Source of the DNA: Eucommia ulmoides
Lineage: Eukaryota; Streptophyta; Magnoliopsida; Garryales; Eucommiaceae
Direction of reading: 5' to 3'
Assembly: GCA_016647705.1 (NCBI GenBank)
Contig: CM028327.1
Location: 7,821,726 to 7,885,725 of the forward strand
Length of the DNA stretch: 64,000 bases
The notes under the pieces were generated by a model. That model did not search any database. It saw only the letters and a list, made by a program, of their open reading frames with translations, and was not told the DNA's origin. The first letter of the stretch is position 1, and each line of letters begins with the position of its first letter. The translations under genes and the position numbers were made by a program. Of the stretch, positions 462 through 33,175 are shown piece after piece.

Positions 462-3400
462 ATGGTGGTCACGCGGTCTTCAGAGAAGAAAAAAAACCAT
501 ATTAAAATGTCAGGTTCGAAACAGTCCAAACCATCATCAAAGAGGGCAATGGAACCACAACATTCAGCAGAGAGAGGGAAGGAGAAGGAACAAGACAAAG
601 ACTACAAAGAAGAGGTTGAGCAAGAAGGTGAGCAGGACATATACTAGTCGTTTTATTCGAAATTTTTAAGTGAATATCATCTCAATATACTGTTGATATA
701 GTACAAATGTAAGTGGATATCCTCTAAATATACTCTGGATTGGATATCATCTACTATCATCATGATTACATCTCATAGGGAGAATGTGTGGGATATGAAA
801 ACTCATGAACTGTTGAATTAGTTTAGAAAAAAGGTTTAGTCAATTTCAGTTGATTTGTGAAACTGTGTCGTGCAATATTAAGTGGATATCCTCTGAGAAA
901 AACTGTATATTCAGTTGATATCATCTGAATGTTAACCTATCAACATGTGTTTTTTCAGTATATGTTTCATCAGCTTGTCTTGAAAATAATAAAGATGTAT
1001 TGCATTCATGTTGTATACAATTTCAGTAGATATCAACTTAAAGATGTACTGCATACAACTGAAATGTTCAAGGGATATCTACTGAAAAAATGTACAGTAG
1101 ATATCAACTTAAATGTTCAGTAGATATCTACTTAAAAATATGCATGTGTACTGCATACATGCTGTTTTAGTACATATAAACTGAAAATAAACATGTGTAA
1201 TGGAAACCTACTTGAAAGTATACATCTTTAGTGATATCTACTAAACACCAGTGGATATCTACTTGAAAATACTAAAGAAGTACTGAATACATGTTGTGTA
1301 CGTTTTCAGTAGATATCTACTGAACATTTTCAGTAGATATCTACTAAAAATGTTCAGTACATGCTGTTTTAGTACATATCAACTGATAATACACATATGT
1401 AATGGAAACCTACTTGAAAATATACATCTTTAGTGATATATACTAAACACCAGTGGATATCTACTTGATTAATGTTTGGAAGTGTACTGCTCTGTTTTGT
1501 TGTTCAGATTTGGTGTTCAGTGTGTTTGTATCTACTGTTTTGGTAGTTGGTCAGTTAACCTATGAAGATGTGTATTTTCAGTATATGTGTCGTCTTAATG
1601 TTAACCTATCGACATGTGTATTTTTAGTATATGTGTCTGACAGTGACTTCGATGATGCCCCTGTGAAAAGAACCCGAAAGCGGACAAAAAATGAAAGGAA
1701 GACTACAACAGAAACAAGCTGGAGAGTAGGTAAATTTTACCTATAATACAGATCATCGTTGAAGCTTGTCTACGAGTTGCTTGACACGATTGTGCTGACA
1801 AGAAAACACACTGAATTGCTGCAATTTACGCCATTCTGGCCAATTTTTGATTCAATTTTGAAGAAGAGAGTGACATTGGAGATGATCAAGAAATTGGACG
1901 ACAACATCGTCGAAATACTGAAGACCTGGAACGAAGAAACAGAGTCTTTCAAAATTAGAGGTGTTGATTTGAAGTTTGCTGTTTCGGATGTTAGACTGAT
2001 TTTTGGACGGAAATGTGGCGAGAAAGCCATCAATTTCTCGTATGGCAAGCTGGAAAGTGAATATTTGGCCAGTATTTGCAAATACTGGAAGCGATTATCG
2101 ACAGTTGACATCAAAACTGCAATCATGGAGTCGGTGCAAAGTGACAACGATGAAGACGTTCGGCATGTTGTGAGTTTGCTGTGCTTGTATCTGCTTGGCA
2201 CGTGTTTGCTGGCCAACAGTGGAGTGTTTGTGGCATTTGGGCTATACAAGTATGTTGAAAATATTGAGCAAATGCACACCTATGCTTGGCATCACGCAAT
2301 TCATAGCCTGTTAATCACATCAATTCAGCAAAACTCCTGTCAGCCTGGGAAGGTGAAAGAGTGTGTTCTTGCATTGCTGGTATGACCCGTCCAAACTTAT
2401 TTGAAGCTGTTAATAATTGAATAATTACTAATAAACTATTCATTTTGTGTATTATTGGTTTTGCGAGCATGTCAATGTCATCAAGGAAGATAATGAGGCA
2501 GCATCCCCATGGTTTGTCAAGTGGGATCTCTCAAAATTGACAACGGACACACTAAAAAATGCACTGAACGAGGAACATAATGCCCCAGATATCAGGGTTA
2601 GTGGATATAAACTGTTTTATAGTTTTTTCGGTTCATTTTTTGTTCCTCTCAAACAATGTATGTAATGCATACATTACAAATCTAGTAGATATCTACATGA
2701 AATTGCAAATCTGTTTACTAGATATCATCTGAAAAATACACATATGTAATGTATATTTACTTGAAATTACAAATCTGTTTAGTTGATAGTGGATATCTAG
2801 TTCAAAATACTAAAGATCTACTGCATACATGTTGTATTATTTTTCAGTAGATATCAACTTAAAGATGTACTGCATACATGCGGTTCAGTAGATATCTACT
2901 GAATAGCATTGATATATACTGAAAAATACACATCTTTAATGATATGTACTGTATCTTTACTGGATATCCACTTCAAAATACACATATGTGCTGCATACAT
3001 GCATATATATCTGCTGAACAAACGCCATATTGACAGGTTAATCCAAAAACCCCGAAAATGACAAGGACGGAGACAAAAATGATCACACACGCTCATGATT
3101 TTAAAAATAAGCGTGCTGGAAAAGGAAAGAAATTTGATCGAAAGAAGGACGATGAAGAAGGATCATGGACTGAGGAAGGTGGACAAGACGAGGACGGGGA
3201 CGAAGGAGAACCGGAGCCTATGGAAACCCCCCACGGTACTCCTTTCAGTCACGGCATTCCGGACAGTCCGACAAGGATGACTACGCCTTATTTCACCCCA
3301 CAAAATTGGACAGCATCAAAAAGCAGAGCTGAAGAAGGTGAAATAGGAAAAGAAACTGAGGAACTCCAAGCCAAAATTGAGAGCTTGGAGAGCGAGAATG

Positions 3401-5385
3401 CAAAACTGAAGAAAAAAAATATCAAACTGAGAGGAAAAAATAAGGCATAAGGAGAGAAAATTACGAAGCTCAAGCTGGAATTGGCTGAGCTGAAAAGGAC
3501 AAGACATGAGCCGAAAGAAGAAGGTAATGAAAAAATAAAAGAATTGGCAGAACAAATGGCTCGACAGAAGAAGGACATGGACAACCAGTTCAAGAATTTG
3601 ATGCTACTTTTAGCTCAAAGAGAGAATGATCTCAAACAGGCCAAAAACAGTCCTCCTCCAGACCCTGTTGCTGGAGAAGAAGCTGAAAAGCGTGCCGAAG
3701 AAATCTACGCAGAGACGGGGCCCAGAGAAGCTGAAGAAATGAAAAAAAAGAAGAGAAAATTGACAGAAAAATCAGGCCAAAGCTCAATGGTTAAAAGGCT
3801 GAAACAGAGAGATCGAGCACAGAAAAAGAAGGAAGACGATTTTGAATATTTAGACATCAAAAAATGCAGAAAGGATAAAGGAACGCATGAAGAAACGGTC
3901 GATCTAGACACATATCAGGCCCCAACACAAAAAAAAAAAAAAAAATAGGTTGCCAAACTACCGAAGAGGCATCAAAGTGAAGTAGCAACTTCATTATCCG
4001 ATGAGGATTGGCAAAAGATAACAACCATATTCAAAACCGAAGGGCCGAGGTAACACAAAATACACATCTTAAAGATATTTTTACATATTCTGGTTGTATA
4101 AAAACGCATGAAAGAAATTTTAACCATCTCTTATTAATACACAGCGCAATTGTATACAATAGGGAATATAGTGCTGTATCTCTTCTAGATATCATTTCAC
4201 TTCTGAACGGTAGAGAACTAAGCAACTTTGTAAGTGAATATATTAAAAAACATCACACATATGAATATAAAAAAAAACGTGAACTAATAATGAAAATTGA
4301 TTGCAGGTCGTAGATAGCTACACAGAGTTCTTAAGGGACAACAATGCGAAATTAGAAAAAAAAATTGAAAAAGGAGAGAATTGTTGTCGGTGACCGCTCA
4401 TACTTCATCACAAGCTATTGCTGGGTATGTTTGGGTACATTTATACGTCTGTTTTATACGTTTGTTTGATGTATTAAAAAACAGTACGTTCATCTACTGA
4501 ATAAATGAACTAAATTCTACAATTTATTCAGTGGATATCTACTGAATAAATTAAATTATTTTATGACTATTAACTAAATTATATATTGTCTCCATCTTTT
4601 ACAGAATTGGGTAAAGGGCAGGTCGACACTGTCAATAGAATTTTTTTTGAATACCCAACTCATTGAAGCATTGTAGGGCGGCTATCGACGCATTCACTTT
4701 CCCATAAACACAATGGATAACGGTCCGAATCATTGGACGCTGCTTGTGTTTGACACAAGTGAGGCAGAATGGAGACACTATAACTCGCTCCAACCAAGAA
4801 TCGGCATCGGAGATCCATACTTGAAAGATGCAATGTTGATGGTAATAAAACTCATGCTTTGTTTCCATTCCTAACTTAAATGTTACATAATAAAACTTTA
4901 ATTTAAAATTTTGTTTATTTTGTAGAGAAAATATGTACTTGATATGATCAAAGATCTCCGCGTAGATGGTGAAGAGTTGGCAATACCGCAGACTGAAACT
5001 CATCTAACAAGCGTACAGGACAGCCCACAACAAATACTCGGATCGTAAGTATTAACGTCATTACACATTTTTTCATGAAATGTAAAATCTATATATAGAC
5101 TCAAATGCATGAACTTTGAATGTTAGGTTGGATTGTGGGACAATGATTTTGTTTATAATGGACCAAACAGCCCAGGGCGTGCCAATTGTGCCATTCGAAA
5201 ATGAGAAAGCGGTGAAAGAAGCAATGATCAAATATCGAGCAAAAATTGTGAATGTATTTTTGAATGATAAGGCCAAATCATGGAGCCTCAAAAGTTTGAG
5301 TCAACGAAAAAAAGTGAAAGAGGAGGACACAGTGCTGACCCTACACCATCTTGATGTGGAAACTGTTATTAAGATTGGCTGTTAA
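462..5385 (+). pseudogene. ULP1-like C48 cysteine protease gene of the MULE, decayed
   Basis: Likely exons: 462-627 (basic, Lys/Glu-rich N-terminus; donor GTGAGC), ~1643-1726, ~1754-2374 (DUF1985-like domain), ~2447-2596, ~3040-4050 (long Lys/Glu-rich coiled coil), ~4307-4432 (motif VGDRSYFITSY), ~4605-4841, 4926-5044 and 5127-5385. The protease core is in the last three exons: His-Trp at 4731, Asn at 4782 where ULP1 has its catalytic Asp, and a Gln-rich segment followed by Asp-Cys-Gly with the nucleophile Cys at 5134. The Ser codon split by the last intron joins in frame. In-frame stops lie at 3448-3450, 3946-3948 (after an 18-A run) and 4674-4676, and the frame shifts near 4378. The family cleaves SUMO-type conjugates; what it does for the transposon is unknown. 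Exon borders before 2600 are approximate. Confidence 0.8.
660..1450. repeat. Palindrome-rich spacer / first intron of the ULP-like gene
   Basis: This AT-rich, non-coding stretch is filled with degenerate copies of AGTAGATATCTACTGAA. One exact 20-bp palindrome TTCAGTAGATATCTACTGAA lies at 1305-1324. It falls between the first two predicted exons of the ULP-like gene. Further copies lie in the later introns, at about 2690-2960 (exact copy 2884-2903) and 4500-4545. Confidence 0.75.
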
Positions 5386-6640
5386 TTAGTGTGTTTGTAT
5401 ATAATGTACCTGACACATATTCAGTAGATATCATCGTATGTCAAACATTTCACATTGGCAGTGTTTATATGTGCAGAAACAATGTGTTTGTATATATATT
5501 GCTCTTATTTAGATTGGCTGTTAGATTGTCTGTTAATCAGTGTGTTTGTATATATACTGCTCTTATTAATTGTTCACATTGGTAGTGTTTGTATGTGCAT
5601 AAACAGCGTATGTCGAACATTTCAGTAACCATTTCAGTAGATATCTACTCATATTTACACATCCTGTTAAAAAATTCAGTAGATACCTGAATAGCCTATT
5701 TGAAGAATTTGAGTCGATATCTACTGAAGCTGACACATATTCAGTGGACATCTACTAAAAAATACTAGTATTGGGATCAAAACAAAGCATTTAGAAGAAT
5801 ACATTCTCTATGTGGATACACATAAATAGCATATTTGGTGCCTTAGCATCCTGTTTGAAACAGTTCAGTAGATATCTACTGAACCTCATACATATTCAGT
5901 GGATATCTACTGAAACTGAGTGATATCTACTGAATTATACTCAATGGGAAGATCCTCTTGTATTGGGATCAAATCAAAGCATTTGAGACTAGTATTGGGA
6001 TCAAAACAAAGCATTTAGCAGAATACATTCTCTATGTGGATACACATAAACAACATATTTGGTGCCTCAACATCCTGTTTGAAACAGTTCAGTAGATATC
6101 TACTGAAGCTCACACATATTCAGTGGATATCTACTGAAACTGAGTGATATCTACTGAATTATACTCAATGGGAAGATCCTCTTGTATTGGGATCAAATCG
6201 AAGCATTTCAGACTAGTATTGGGATCAAAACAAAGCATTTAGCAAAATGCATTCTCTATGTGGATACACATAAACAACATATTTCGTGCCAAAACAGTCT
6301 GTTTGATACAGTTCAGTAGATATCTACTGAAGCTGACACATATTCAGTGGATATCTACTGAAACTGAGTGATATCTACTGAATATAGTACTTGGGAAGAT
6401 CCTCATATTTAGTACCTAACAACCTGTTGGAAACATTTTAGTAGATATCTTCTGAACAGAATGATTTGGTACATAAAACAGCATAATTCAAATTTTGTTG
6501 ACCAAATATATCATGAAAAACGGCATATATTAAAATTTCAGTAGACATCTATTGAAAAAATACATCTTCACCATATATAGCATGTATATAACAACATATA
6601 TTAAAATTCCAGCACACATCTACTGAAAAAATACATATCG
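5386..6640. repeat. 224-bp tandem repeat block between the two MULE genes
   Basis: The stretch between the 3' ends of the convergent ULP-like and transposase genes has no coding capacity. Three direct units of 224 bp start at 5781, 6005 and 6229. Each contains AACAAAGCATTTA, a stretch reading TCTATGTGGATACACATAAA, an exact 20-bp palindrome (5864, 6088, 6312) and a one-mismatch palindrome (TTCAGTGGATATCTACTGAA). Related units fill the transposase intron at 7914-9113. Confidence 0.85.
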
Positions 6641-6850
6641 TTGTTGGATATTGTTTTCCAAAAATATACAGCCTTGCAAATATATACATTGCAGCCTTCC
6701 AAAAAATATACAGCCTTACAAAAATATACATTGCAGCCTTGCAAAAACTATACAGCCTTGCAAAAATATACATTGCAGCCTTGCAAAAATATACAGCCTT
6801 GCAAAAATATACAGCCACACAAAAATATACATTACAAAAATCTGAAAAAA
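6640..6850. repeat. 42-bp minisatellite (AGCCTTGCAAAAATATACA type)
   Basis: Short direct repeats with the core CAGCCTTGCAAAAATATACA alternate between a TTGCAG and a plain junction, giving a 42-bp higher unit starting near 6686, 6728 and 6770. The block lies about 100 bases past the stop of the minus-strand transposase, in its likely 3' UTR. Open frames across it on both strands are repeat artefacts. Confidence 0.8.
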
Positions 6851-6943
6851 TATACAGTGTGCAACCTGTTATTCAAATTGCAGCCTTGCACGTCTTCCGA
6901 TTGTGGTTCGCATATTGCTTGCACCGACTACACCGAATTTTCT

Positions 6944-9900
6944 TTACTTTTTCCCCTTTTGATGCAATCCGCTTCTTCTTTGGATGCTCAGCTGGTCGGC
7001 GTGTTTGCGGCGGTAACACAATAGCTGTTGCGCTGTCATTACTGGTCTTCCAAGGGTAAGGACAGACAAAATACCCTCCAAATACGTACTACGATACAAA
7101 TCAACACGGAAGAAATCTTCAACATAGTCATACAAATTCCCCCCCGATTTTTGAATGGCGGCGCAAGCATGTGCACACGGGAAACCTTTCAATTGCCATT
7201 GGAAACATGAACAAGTACGATTAATAATATCTACTGAGACTGATGGGTGGCAATGCACTTCAAATTTTCCTTCAGAGCATAAACCCACCAACCACGTCCT
7301 ACCGCTCTCAACATATTCTAATAACTTTTTATCCCAAAACGGGCAAATGACACCAGACATCTTATTCGAAAGAAGTCTTCGACTCGATATGTGGTCCATG
7401 AGCTGTACTCTAATCATATCAATGCATTCCATTATGGGGAGGTGTCGGACTTTAACAATCCAAGCGTTAAACGATTCGACAAGATTTGAATACATCTCGC
7501 CGTATCGTTGTCCAACAAAAAAGGCATTAGTCCAATTCTCAGGAGGTAACTCATTCAAGAATGAAATAACCCTTGGCCCACCTTCAACAATAAGTCTATT
7601 TCTATGAATGGCAAACCCCTCAACAGTTGGTGCAAACGCACATTGATCAAGTCTATGAAGCAGATTTTTTTTTTCAGCACATTATCCCTCCCACTTAGTT
7701 TATCTCTTAGGTTACACTTCAAATGATGTAAGCAAAATGCATGGGGGGAGTTCGGGAAAACAGTACGTACAGCTTGAATCAAACCTGGTTGTCGATCCGA
7801 AATGAATGTAATGCGCCGCTCATCAAAAACAATAATCGACAATTGTTGTGCAAACCACATCCAATTGTCGTCGTTCTCCACATTAACAATAACAAAAGCC
7901 AATGGAAACATTCCTGAACATGTAAAAAATCAGAATACAGCTTGTTTGGTGCCTAAACAAAGCATTTACCAGAATACATTCTCTATGTGGATACACATAA
8001 ACAGTATATTTGGTGCCTAAACATCCTGTTTGAAACAGTTCAGTAGATATCTACTGAATCTGACACATATTCAGTGGATATGTACTGAAACTGAGTGATA
8101 TCTTCTGAAATATACTCAATGGAAAGATCCTCATGTATTGGGATCAAATCAAAGCATTTGAGACTCAATTGGAGAAAATAAAGCATTTACCAGAATACAT
8201 TTCTATGTGGATACACATAAACAACATATTTGGTGCCAAAACACCCTGTTTGAAACATTTAAGTAGATATCTACTGAAACTGAGTGATATCTACTGAAAT
8301 ATACTCAATGGGAAGATCCTCATGTATTGGGATCAAATCGAAGCATTTGAGACTCAATTGGAGAAAACAAAGCATTTACCAGAATACATTCTCTATGTGC
8401 ATACACATAAATAGCATTTTTGGTGCCTGAACATCCTGTTTGAAACAATTCAGTAGATATCTACTGAATTTGACACATATTCAGTGGATATCTACTGAAA
8501 CTGAGTGATATCTACTGAAATATACTCAATGGGAAGATCCTCATGTATTGGGATCAAATCAAAGCATTTGAGACTCAATTGGAGAAAACAAAGCATTTAT
8601 CAGAATACATTTCTATGTGGATACACAAAAAACAACATATTTGGTGCCAAAACACCCTGTTTGAAACATTTCAGTAGATATCTACTGAAACTGAGTGATA
8701 TCTACTGAAATATACTCAATGGGAAGATCCTCATGTATTGGGATCAAATCGAAGCATTTGAGACTCAATTGGAGAAAACAAAGCATTTACCAGAATACAT
8801 TCTCTATGTGCATACACATAAACAACATTTTTGGTGCCTAAACATCCTGTTTGAAACAGTTCAGTAGATATCTACTGAATCTGACACATATTCAGTAGAT
8901 ATCTACTGAAACTGAGTGATATCTACTGAAATATACTCAGTGGGAAGATCCTCATGTATTGGGATCAAATCAAAGCATTTGAGAATCAATTGGAGAAAAC
9001 AAAACATTTACCAGAACATGTAAAAAATCAGAAAACATTCAAGTTGAAAACACAATAAACATCATTAAAAATAGAAACAAAAGCTGCAATCGAAAAATAA
9101 AACGTAATATAACCTTCATTCCCGTCCTTCGCAGACGCAGCAAGCAACGTTCCCTTATACCGACTCTTGAGGAATGTTCTGTCTATAAACAACATAGGCC
9201 GGCAAAACTTGAAGCCTTTAATGCACGCATTAAAGGACACAAAAATTCTCTTAAAATGACCAAACTCTTGGTTATACTCCAAATAAAAGTGGCTGCCTGG
9301 GTTTGTCGATTGGCAAACACTAATATACCACCTCAATAAGTCGTATGATGCCATATAATCACCATTTAATTAATTCTGAGCCTTCTCTACCCCTAGCCAT
9401 GCATGATTGTATGTTATTTCTAATCCATACGTGTTCTTGAAATCAGAAACAACATCAACAGGACGTTTTAGTGGATTTCCACGAATCTCAACTGTCAACT
9501 CACTTGCAATGACATTGGAACTCATCCTTTCATTTTTGCATGACCGAAATGATGCACCACAAGTATGTACGTTATCCAACTTTCTGATTACAAAAATCCC
9601 AGTAACAGTGTCAGCTCTAGCATGGACATTCCACTTACAGGAAGTCAAATCCCTATGACAACATGCAGTAGTGACTCGAACGCTGTCATTCTTCAAATAA
9701 TCGAAATGAAACCCAACCTCAATTGAATACTTGACTAGATCACTACGAAATTGATCTGCTCCCCCATCAAATTGTTGACCCACCTCTCTAATAAGGGTGA
9801 ACCACGACTTAGAACGGTGATTTGTCGTATGGTCGACACAATAAGACCCAAGAAAATCTATCGCTTCATCATGTGGGGGGGTGTGACATCTCTCATCATC

Positions 9901-10191
9901 TTCTCCCCCGTCTCTACAATTTTCATCGACAATCTATTTCACAACAACGTTCAAGTATCCCAAATTTAACAACTTCACTAAATCTAATAAAGCTGAAAAG
10001 TCTTTTTGATCATTCAAAATACAATTTGACTGTCCCACGATTGAATATGATATGCGCAATGAGTAACGTTGCAACACATTCCATTGCTCAATCAACTTAT
10101 CAACTAACACATCATATGTATATCTTTCATCATCAATTTTTATCAAACACGTTTCCTCCCCATACGTACACACCATGATTAATCCTCCCAT
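6944..10191 (-). pseudogene. MuDR-type MULE transposase, two exons, decayed
   Basis: Exon 1 runs from an ATG at 10191 (MGGLIMV) down to 9114, and exon 2 from 7913 to 6944. The 1,200-bp intron 7914-9113 has GT-AG ends and restores a Gly codon in the motif NEGMFPLAF. Domains in order: N-terminal PB1-like region, MuDR DNA-binding domain (9370-9783, with CCHRDLTSCKW), DDE core with LFIDRTF (first Asp), FISDRQPG (second Asp) and NLVESFNAW (Glu), then a SWIM zinc finger (CSCFQWQLKGFPCAHAC). The family cuts and pastes its own element at the ends. In-frame stops lie at 9934-9936 and 9370-9372, and the frame shifts at the ten-T run 7665-7674. All three catalytic residues remain visible. A poor copy of a once complete transposase; family assignment is firm. 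Confidence 0.9.
7914..9113 (-). repeat. Transposase intron made of alternating 221/190-bp repeats
   Basis: Units begin at 7956, 8177, 8366, 8587, 8777 and 8998, so spacings alternate 221, 189, 221, 190, 221. The long unit has an extra segment reading TGACACATATTCAGTGGATATC that the short one lacks, giving a ~411-bp higher-order dimer. Exact 20-bp palindromes lie at 8039, 8449, 8670, 8860 and 8891. The array is bounded exactly by the splice sites of the transposase gene and is related to the block at 5781-6420 in the same orientation. Confidence 0.88.
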
Positions 10192-10587
10192 TGTCAAAAA
10201 CAAAACTGCAAATTCATAAAATAAAAACATAATATTACATTCAGTAAAAACATCTATTCAAAAAATGTATTTGTATACAAACAGCATAATTCAAAATGTA
10301 AGTAGATATCTATTGAGAAATACACATCCTTAGTGGATATCTTCTGAACAGAACCTCAGTTGACAAACATGAAACAGTGGCAGATTATTTATTCATGATT
10401 TCGGTTGACAAACAATAAACATGAAACTTAGTTTATCTATTGCGAACAGAACAGAACCCCATGCATAAACTGCAAATGAACTGCAAATGAAATGTGGCAC
10501 GAAAAATAGAAACGAATAACAGAAACAAAGAAATGTAGAATCCGAACACTGAAGAGGTAGAAACGAATAACAGAAACGAAACGAGTA

Positions 10588-10905: not shown

Positions 10906-11282
10906 ACTCAAAACCTCCATTTGTATACATATGAAGGGCAAAAATGTGATTATCAACTTCAAAAATCTGGCGCGAAAATTGTTTACATGGCTGGCCCCTA
11001 TTTCTGAAATGATTTTCCTACTGACTGTTCTTCCTATTGACTACGCTTCTTCCATGTAGGAACTGACTGTTCTATAGGGGTGCTGGTCTAAACTGATTCT
11101 TCTATATAAAATAGGGGGTAAGGGCAAAAATGGAAACAAAATTTCATGGTCAAGTCAGCAAAACACTTATGGAGACAAAAGACTTGAACTTGGGAGTTTT
11201 CACATGAAAGGGATTTTGGTGGGATCTAAAAAGTTGTCTCAACTCAAAATGGGACTTTTGGAAGAAAAACTCTAAAATTTTT

Positions 11283-21309: not shown

Positions 21310-22250
21310 ATAAACCATGATAAGTAAAATAACAAATAAAAATAGAAACACGAAACAGAAACATGAAACATGAAACAGAAACACGAAACAGAAACATGAA
21401 CATGAAACTGATAGGAATTGACTAAAACTTGTCTTTTAATCATTAAATTACCTTAGACACCTTAAAATTAAACACGAAACAGAAACAGAAACATGAAACA
21501 GAAACACGAAACAGAAACAGAAACATGAAACAGAAACACGAAACAGAAACAGAAACAGAAACAGAAACAGAAACAGAAACATGAACATGAAACTGATAGG
21601 AATTGACTAAAACTTGTCTTTTAATCATTAAATTACCTTAGACACCTTAAAATTAAACACGAAACAGAAACAGAAACATGAAACAGAAACACGAAACAGA
21701 AACAGAAACATGAAACAGAAACACCGAACAGAAACAGAAACAGAAACATGAACATGAAACTGATAGGAATTGACTAAAACTTGTCTTTTAATCATTAAAT
21801 TACCTTAGACACCTTAAAATTAAACATGAAACAGAAACAGAAACATGAAACAGAAACACGAAACAGAAACAGAAACAGAAACATGAACATGAAACTGATA
21901 GAAATTGACTAAAACTTGTCTTTTAATCATTAAATTACCTTAGACACCTTAAAATTAAACATGAAACAGAAACAGAAACAGAAACATGAAACAGAAACAC
22001 GAAACAGAAGCAGAAACATGAAACAGAAACACGAAACAGAAACAGAAACATGAACATGAACATGAAACTGATAGGAATTGACTAAAACTTGTCTTTTAAT
22101 CATTAAATTACCTTAGACACCTTAAAATTAAACATGAAACAGAAACAGAAACATGAAACAGAAACACGAAACAGAAACAGAAACACGAAATAGAAACACG
22201 AAACAGAAACAGAAACATGAAACAAAAATATGAAACTAATAGGTTCAGAA
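21310..22250. repeat. (GAAACA)n-containing tandem array in the hAT 5' region
   Basis: Five units start at GATAGGAATTGACTAAAACT (21410, 21595, 21762, 21897, 22070; spacing 185, 167, 135, 173). Each has a conserved ~80-bp core (TTGTCTTTTAATCATTAAAT ... CTTAGACACC) and a variable run of AGAAAC/ATGAAAC hexamers that explains the length differences. It lies upstream of the transposase ATG, within the likely promoter or 5' UTR. Confidence 0.92.
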
Positions 22251-32599: not shown

Positions 32600-33175
32600 C
32601 TGGTGGGTTGACCTTGTTACCTTTAGGATGAACTGAACTCGGTATTTTATTTGACCATTGGGCTGGTCTTGGTAGAGCTTTTGCTTTTGACGAACTTGGA
32701 TAGGCAGTTTGGTTTATACGTGAAGTGGGCTGGGCAGTTACGTACTGATTTGGGTTGGCCTTGGCATCCCAATCAATTTTGACGAAGTAGACTAGGCAGT
32801 TCAGTCTGTATGTGAACTGGGTTGGTCAGTTATGTATTGATTTGAGCTGGCCTTGGCAACTTAGCTAATTTTGACAAATTAGGTTGGGCAGTTCGGTTTA
32901 TACGTGAATTGGGCTAGGCACTTACGTACTGATTTGGGTTGGCTTTGGCAGCTCAACCAATTTTGACGAACTGGACTAGGTAGTTTGGTCTGTACGTGAA
33001 TTAGGTTGGGCAGTTACGTACTGATTTAGACTGGCCTTGGTAGCTCAGCCAATTTTGATAAACTGGACTAGGCAATTTGATCTGTATGTAAACTGGGCTA
33101 GGCGGTACGTATTGATTTGAGCTGGCCTTGGCAACTCAGTTAGTGGGTGAGCTGATCTTGGCAACCTACTTTCAG
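32600..33175. repeat. 92-bp tandem repeat array in gypsy 3' region
   Basis: Units containing TTTTGACGAACTGGACTAGG, CAGTTACGTACTGATTT and GGCCTTGGCAGCTCA start near 32695, 32777, 32869, 32961 and 33053; the last three intervals are exactly 92 bp. Copies differ at many positions. The array lies between the pol 3' end and the antisense ORF. Confidence 0.9.

Follow-up and report, generated by a model that had tools for sequence, protein, structure and literature searches.

A perfect palindrome dispersed through a Mutator-like transposon of Eucommia ulmoides as a probable target of the element's own DUF1985 protein

Introduction

Why should a perfect 20-bp palindrome recur through the introns and spacers of a single transposon? 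The question is posed by a 64-kb stretch of the Eucommia ulmoides genome (CM028327.1, positions 7,821,726 to 7,885,725; hereafter the window, with positions counted from its first base), which opens with a Mutator-like element (MULE) that carries a DUF1985 gene, a transposase gene and many copies of the palindrome TTCAGTAGATATCTACTGAA. An earlier note on this DNA had suggested an internal transposase-binding or architectural site, or hairpins acting in RNA. We propose, with a probability of roughly 0.7, that the DUF1985 (VANC-like) protein encoded by the element itself has the palindrome as its target. This proposal draws on sequence comparison, a structural model and analogy, and the window element is best read as an anti-silencing MULE of the VANC type whose target has two-fold symmetry.

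The analogy is with the VANDAL transposons of Arabidopsis. VANC21 and VANC6 cause loss of DNA methylation in Arabidopsis. According to Hosaka 2017 (PMC5735166), VANC proteins carry DUF1985 and DUF287 domains, and VANC21 is found on short motifs in intron, intergenic and terminal non-coding DNA; the same source describes turnover of VANDAL tandem repeats and family-specific targets.

Results

The palindrome in the window

On checking, TTCAGTAGATATCTACTGAA is a perfect 20-bp palindrome, and all ten exact copies listed in the earlier note stand where it placed them. A further 8, 7 and 4 sites carry one, two and three mismatches, respectively. These 29 sites lie between positions 910 and 8910, all inside the MULE, so that the restriction of the palindrome to this element within the window holds; 100 dinucleotide shuffles gave no match. 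The observation that the palindrome avoids the Ulp1-like and transposase exons is likewise borne out: none of the 29 sites falls within the 4,937 putative coding bp (limits set by eye from open frames) among the 11,272 bp of the element inside the window, with p = 5.5e-8 if the sites are independent, which array copies are not. The one- and two-mismatch copies that had been placed from 660 to 10330 do exist in number, but they span only 1022-8910, and the near-copies around 700-930 and at 10298-10330 differ from the palindrome at three to nine positions. Ten exact copies do not amount to ten independent events, because most sit in tandem arrays, at 5764-6404 (224-bp unit) and 7955-9016 (periods of 190, 221 and 411 bp). 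The spacing of the sites shows no clear 10-11-bp helical phase. The motif-bearing features, none with an assigned strand, are as follows.

1022-1348: motif cluster upstream of the DUF1985 exon, with an exact copy at 1305-1324
2843-2903: motif pair after the DUF1985 exon, with an exact copy at 2884-2903
4527-4546: single one-mismatch motif between exons, present also in a relative of the element on contig C14
5764-6404: spacer array of 224-bp units, with exact motifs at 5864, 6088 and 6312
7955-9016: array between two transposase exons, with exact motifs at 8039, 8449, 8670, 8860 and 8891

The palindrome in the family

A genome count, proposed in the earlier note as a check, gave 1,824 exact copies in 947 Mb (391 contigs) and none of the reversed control. 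The DUF1985 exon has at least 150 relatives in this genome (150 of 2,363 candidates were scored), and the 30 best-scoring of the 150 listed make up our main-clade loci. Homologous copies keep the palindrome in all 30: each has 4-14 sites with at most two mismatches, and 1 to 9 exact copies are present per 3.6-kb locus. In 29 loci, 237 sites lie upstream of the DUF1985 exon, 246 downstream and none inside.

The listed places of TTCAGTAGATATCTACTGAA, which cover contig C1 up to 12.34 Mb, form groups at 0.27, 8.90-8.91 and 12.30-12.34 Mb. Each of the 14 places in the first two groups has a listed family protein at most 15 kb away. The third begins by two DUF1985 matches and continues as a long array, with a transposase match at 12.443 Mb near its end. 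With DUF1985 genes at 12296726 and 12301788 on one flank and the transposase at 12442759 on the other, this is apparently one element, and judging from samples at three places it looks like a motif array of about 0.13 Mb. The sampled stretches L041, L049 and L050 (C1:12.306-12.440 Mb) are filled by the spacer unit of this MULE, which is about 219 bp long and contains the motif. Neither refuting outcome set out in the earlier note, a common unrelated satellite or homologous copies lacking the palindrome, arose in that form, though the unit did grow into this array in one family member. Copies preceded by GTTT were within 10 kb of a family match in 19 of 19 cases (compared by eye), a sample that is not unbiased because the GTTT context came from the DUF1985 gene. 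The family loci also contain another perfect palindrome, TTAAGTAGATATCTACTTAA, with 13 copies there and 210 genome-wide (control 0); 28 of its 50 listed places have a listed family protein no more than 15 kb away, against 0.6% at random.

Such arrays invite the explanation that the motif is a neutral hitchhiker of expanding minisatellites, common solely through repeats. Many copies do stand in tandem arrays, the longest just described, and single-linkage clustering by flanks puts 517 of the 530 sites with at most two mismatches into one group, in part because neighbouring sites fall in each other's flanks. Under a stricter flank rule, however, nine of the 530 sites stand in contexts unrelated to one another, four of these nine being exact copies; some sites, such as that at window position 4527, are single; and different DUF1985 groups have different motifs beside the same exon. 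We regard this explanation as unlikely.

Conservation of the site

We collected 935 TTCAGTAGATATCTACTGAA-type sites (at most five mismatches; 258 distinct) from 204,886 bases of family DNA, after dropping 12 overlapping, flanking or non-family loci. Conservation is mirror-symmetric: the two weakest pairs of positions are 3/18 (0.67/0.69) and 7/14 (0.67/0.72), and the remaining positions reach 0.88-1.00 over all 935 sites and 0.81-1.00 over the 258 distinct ones. With one half intact, the other has at most two mismatches in 292 of 350 and 326 of 404 sites, the remainder having mostly five or more.

Arm pairing bears directly on the idea of RNA hairpins in introns, for which a perfect palindrome able to fold in RNA is the obvious attraction. 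On the sense strand, with G-U counted as paired, positions 7/14 are unpaired in 161 of 483 sites and positions 3/18 in 176 of 483. Two-sided changes that keep the pair number 34 and 22, respectively; a separate pair table of the 935 sites is biased against double changes by its five-mismatch limit. Arm pairing is not kept, and we reject the hairpin on that ground. The spacer between the two genes likewise holds exact copies (5864-6331). Among the explanations considered here, the hairpin is the one to which we give the least credence.

Motif class follows the DUF1985 clade

We compared the main clade with nine diverged loci, eight of them 3-kb stretches around DUF1985 exons 27-36% identical to that of the window and the ninth (L051) a 20-kb stretch that surrounds a transposase of about 50% identity. 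TTCAGTAGATATCTACTGAA, with up to two mismatches, is absent from all nine. In its place, L055 and L059 have exact TGTTACATGTAACA, and L053, L054, L056, L057, L058 and L060 have exact TGTTGAATGTAACA (L053 and L060 only one exact copy each, with five or six within one mismatch). L051 has TTAGTTACAT half-sites; its DUF1985-like exon is preceded by a 174-bp array in whose consensus these are inverted. By exact or up-to-two-mismatch count, none of the 39 loci holds two motif classes. The motifs of eight diverged loci, like those of the main clade, are never inside the exon; they lie upstream in 8/8 and downstream in 6/8.

A tree of 23 DUF1985 rows, drawn from 14 main-clade loci (of the 30) and the full set of nine diverged loci, supports the main clade at 100/100. 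Motif changes on this tree number three, the minimum possible, a value as low as which was reached in none of 200 shuffles. The perfect palindrome TGTTACATGTAACA nests in the asymmetric TGTTGAATGTAACA class beside L058, at a fork supported 84/73. The placement of L051, on a long branch, is unsure. At the level of sequence, then, motif class follows DUF1985 clade across the 39 loci. Genome-wide, TGTTGAATGTAACA occurs 8,425 times on the plus and 8,487 times on the minus strand (control 7 and 8), and ATGTTACATGTAACAT 5,381 times (control 0). Neighbouring TGTTGAATGTAACA copies listed on C1 share a strand in 57 of 70 pairs; orientation is not definable for a palindrome.

Two further observations concern the TGTTGAATGTAACA group. 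At L056 (C9:28906700-28909699), its DUF1985 sequence has many copies more than 90% identical, and several copies in the group have open 234-codon frames with no stop; the sequences suggest recent activity. Positions 234-485 of L060 contain a short symmetric word, CGCCTAGGC / CCGCCTAGGCGG, at about five places.

Palindromic sites are typical of dimeric host factors, and the element might exploit a site that is read by a transcription or chromatin factor of its host. Against this, a single host genome contains DUF1985 groups with different motif classes, and we consider the idea improbable.

The transposase, or another protein of the element, is a more serious candidate, using the palindrome as an internal site for synapsis or cutting. 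Symmetry, repetition and inheritance together with the transposase all fit such a site, and some copies lie between the transposase exons. Of the earlier note's reading, the symmetric, dispersed, non-coding site is supported and is kept by homologues; transposase binding is less well supported. In the window copy, no site with up to three mismatches occurs in the terminal 0.9 kb on the left or 2.3 kb on the right, and the ends of the C14 relative are site-free for about 0.9 kb each. Moreover, the number of exact copies varies from 1 to 9 per main-clade locus, and the sites flank the DUF1985 exon. This leaves the transposase unlikely as the reader of the palindrome, yet the best placed of the alternatives.

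Predicted fold of the DUF1985 region

An AlphaFold2 (AF2) model of the window DUF1985 region, built from a 20-row alignment, has a pLDDT of 78.5 and a pTM of 0.82. Its one clear match in the PDB, also the top one, is 9lnj, a structure of VANC21 on target DNA (prob 1.00, TMq 0.55, E 7e-3), and the next match falls to E 0.66 and prob 0.05. The region is thus predicted to fold like VANC21.

Anatomy of the element

The MULE begins 13 bases ahead of the window's own first base and is 11,285 bp long. Its coding features and boundaries, placed from comparison and open frames, are listed below.

-12 to 11272, no strand: MULE copy, chimeric between the tandem DUF1985 genes A and B; edges set by aligning it with its C14 relative
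1636-2385, plus strand: DUF1985 (VANC-like) exon, PF09331 E 3.7e-7, 30.6 bits (cut-off 35.1); 1636 is where similarity to the relative begins, and the part tested is 1747-2385
3034-3948, plus strand: lysine/glutamate-rich part of the DUF1985 gene; open frames, with an in-frame stop near 3450
4005-5385, plus strand: Ulp1-protease-like exons; open frames, named from the earlier note and from their residues
6944-7929, minus strand: transposase, remaining MULE domain and SWIM finger, in two overlapping open frames
9028-9369, minus strand: transposase, start of the MULE catalytic domain, PF10551 E 0.078 (weak)
9370-9933, minus strand: transposase, MuDR DNA-binding domain, PF03108 E 3.9e-11
11273-11281, no strand: right 9-bp target-site duplication TAAAATTTT; the left copy is in L035

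By sequence, a MULE transposase with a SWIM finger is present (7555-7929, PF10551 E 1.2e-11; 6944-7681, PF04434 E 1.8e-7), and the two overlapping frames at 6944-7929 indicate that its reading frame is broken in the window copy. Stretch 3034-3948 gave weak, sub-cut-off Pfam matches alone, to shugoshin and bZIP coiled coils; a coiled coil downstream of the DUF1985 exon is probable. No C48 (Ulp1 protease) Pfam domain was found in the single, unjoined exons and pieces of 4005-5385.

Perfect 9-bp duplications flank both the window copy and the 17,420-bp C14 relative. Long terminal inverted repeats are lacking in this MULE: the best end match scores 14, against a shuffle mean of 14.9, in a comparison that lacked 13 bases of the left end. 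Two DUF1985 genes stand in tandem on one strand of the C14 relative, whose transposase is encoded on the other; among the matches listed, DUF1985 pairs about 5 kb apart are common, and some elements show only one. By BLAST, the window copy matches gene A (96%) as far as about position 3002 and, from about 2721 onwards, gene B (91%), which identifies it as an A/B chimera. The junction, at 2721-3002, lies in a motif-bearing non-coding stretch, as if repeats had recombined. Outside the MULE, the window has an AAACAG-rich tandem array with longer higher units (21340-22243) and a tandem array of 92/184-bp units (32685-33138).

Discussion

The window element resembles VANDAL21 (Hiun) with VANC21 and VANDAL6 with VANC6 in pairing a MULE transposase with a DUF1985 protein, in its dense short motif within introns and intergenic DNA, in tandem-repeat expansion that differs between copies, and in motifs that differ between related families. 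Its ends are also VANDAL-like, with perfect 9-bp duplications in two elements and inverted repeats no better than shuffles; VANDALs are described as having no terminal inverted repeats, or short degenerate ones (PMC6446971). Some VANC genes carry Ulp1 (KIU / Kaonashi) and act on the motifs of their own group, as stated in a 2026 review (PMC13317346). The combination of Ulp1 with a VANC-type gene recalls the putative Ulp1-like exons of the present element, an identity not confirmed by Pfam. Two differences stand out. The tandem DUF1985 gene pair of the C14 relative departs from the Arabidopsis VANDALs, and the target here is a 20-bp perfect palindrome, unlike the nine-base YAGTATTAY of VANC21, which is arrayed in one orientation, and unlike the VANC6 targets AGTTGTCC and AGTTGTAC. 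No palindromic VANC target was found in the literature surveyed, which did not extend to Sasaki 2022 (EMBO J).

Several observations weigh against the DUF1985 protein as the reader of the palindrome. The transposase is inherited together with the DUF1985 gene, and for this reason the tracking of motif by clade does not single out DUF1985. The window DUF1985 match (30.6 bits) is under the Pfam cut-off, which the best copy in the genome exceeds at 39.8 bits, and the DUF1985-like exon of L051, 36% identical to that of the window, has no Pfam match. The fold match to 9lnj is modest (13% identity at the E value above), sequence searches of the PDB did not find VANC21, and a low-confidence model of the TGTTGAATGTAACA-clade DUF1985 (pLDDT 64) had no PDB match to it. 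YAGTATTAY, AGTTGTCC and AGTTGTAC do not occur in the window element. A likeness of the half-site to YAGTATTAY/AGTTGTMC was dropped, random 10-mers equalling it in 16-61% of draws. Finally, motifs are found apart from the proteins: 22 of the 50 listed TTAAGTAGATATCTACTTAA places are beyond 15 kb of any listed family protein, and on C1 none of the 100 TGTTGAATGTAACA places listed (0.49-15.3 Mb) or the 50 ATGTTACATGTAACAT places listed (1.5-24.3 Mb) is near a listed DUF1985 match, compared by eye with lists of 150 of 2,024 and 150 of 2,606 candidates. Likewise, L061 (C1:24322200-24325199) has seven exact TGTTACATGTAACA copies in 3 kb and no DUF1985 exon; it is perhaps a non-autonomous element. 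Where clusters of the sister motifs lack a listed DUF1985 match, they may represent non-autonomous copies or further portions of large elements, or they may be repeats of an unrelated kind.

With the DUF1985 protein as the preferred reader, we propose the following mechanism by analogy with Arabidopsis. The protein would bind the many palindromes along its own element, probably as a dimer because the site is two-fold symmetric, and a probable coiled coil follows the DUF1985 exon. Binding would lead to local loss of DNA methylation on the element, as with VANC21 and VANC6; the genes of the element would then be expressed and the element could move, and unrelated transposons would stay silent. 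Rapid array change could, in addition, allow individual families to evade RNA-directed methylation, an idea put forward for VANDALs (PMC10398659).

The kind of system is already known; what look new are the palindromic target, the four motif classes in one genome and the array of about 0.13 Mb. More tentatively, and at somewhat less than even odds in our judgement, VANC-type proteins of this plant lineage may read two-fold-symmetric sites as dimers, with the class of site changing along with the protein, including a change from asymmetric TGTTGAATGTAACA to perfect palindrome TGTTACATGTAACA in one clade, at least four protein-motif pairs in one genome and one array grown to that length. If this is true, VANC-type anti-silencing would extend to long symmetric targets, and such proteins could be used as sequence-specific demethylation tools with 14-20-bp sites.

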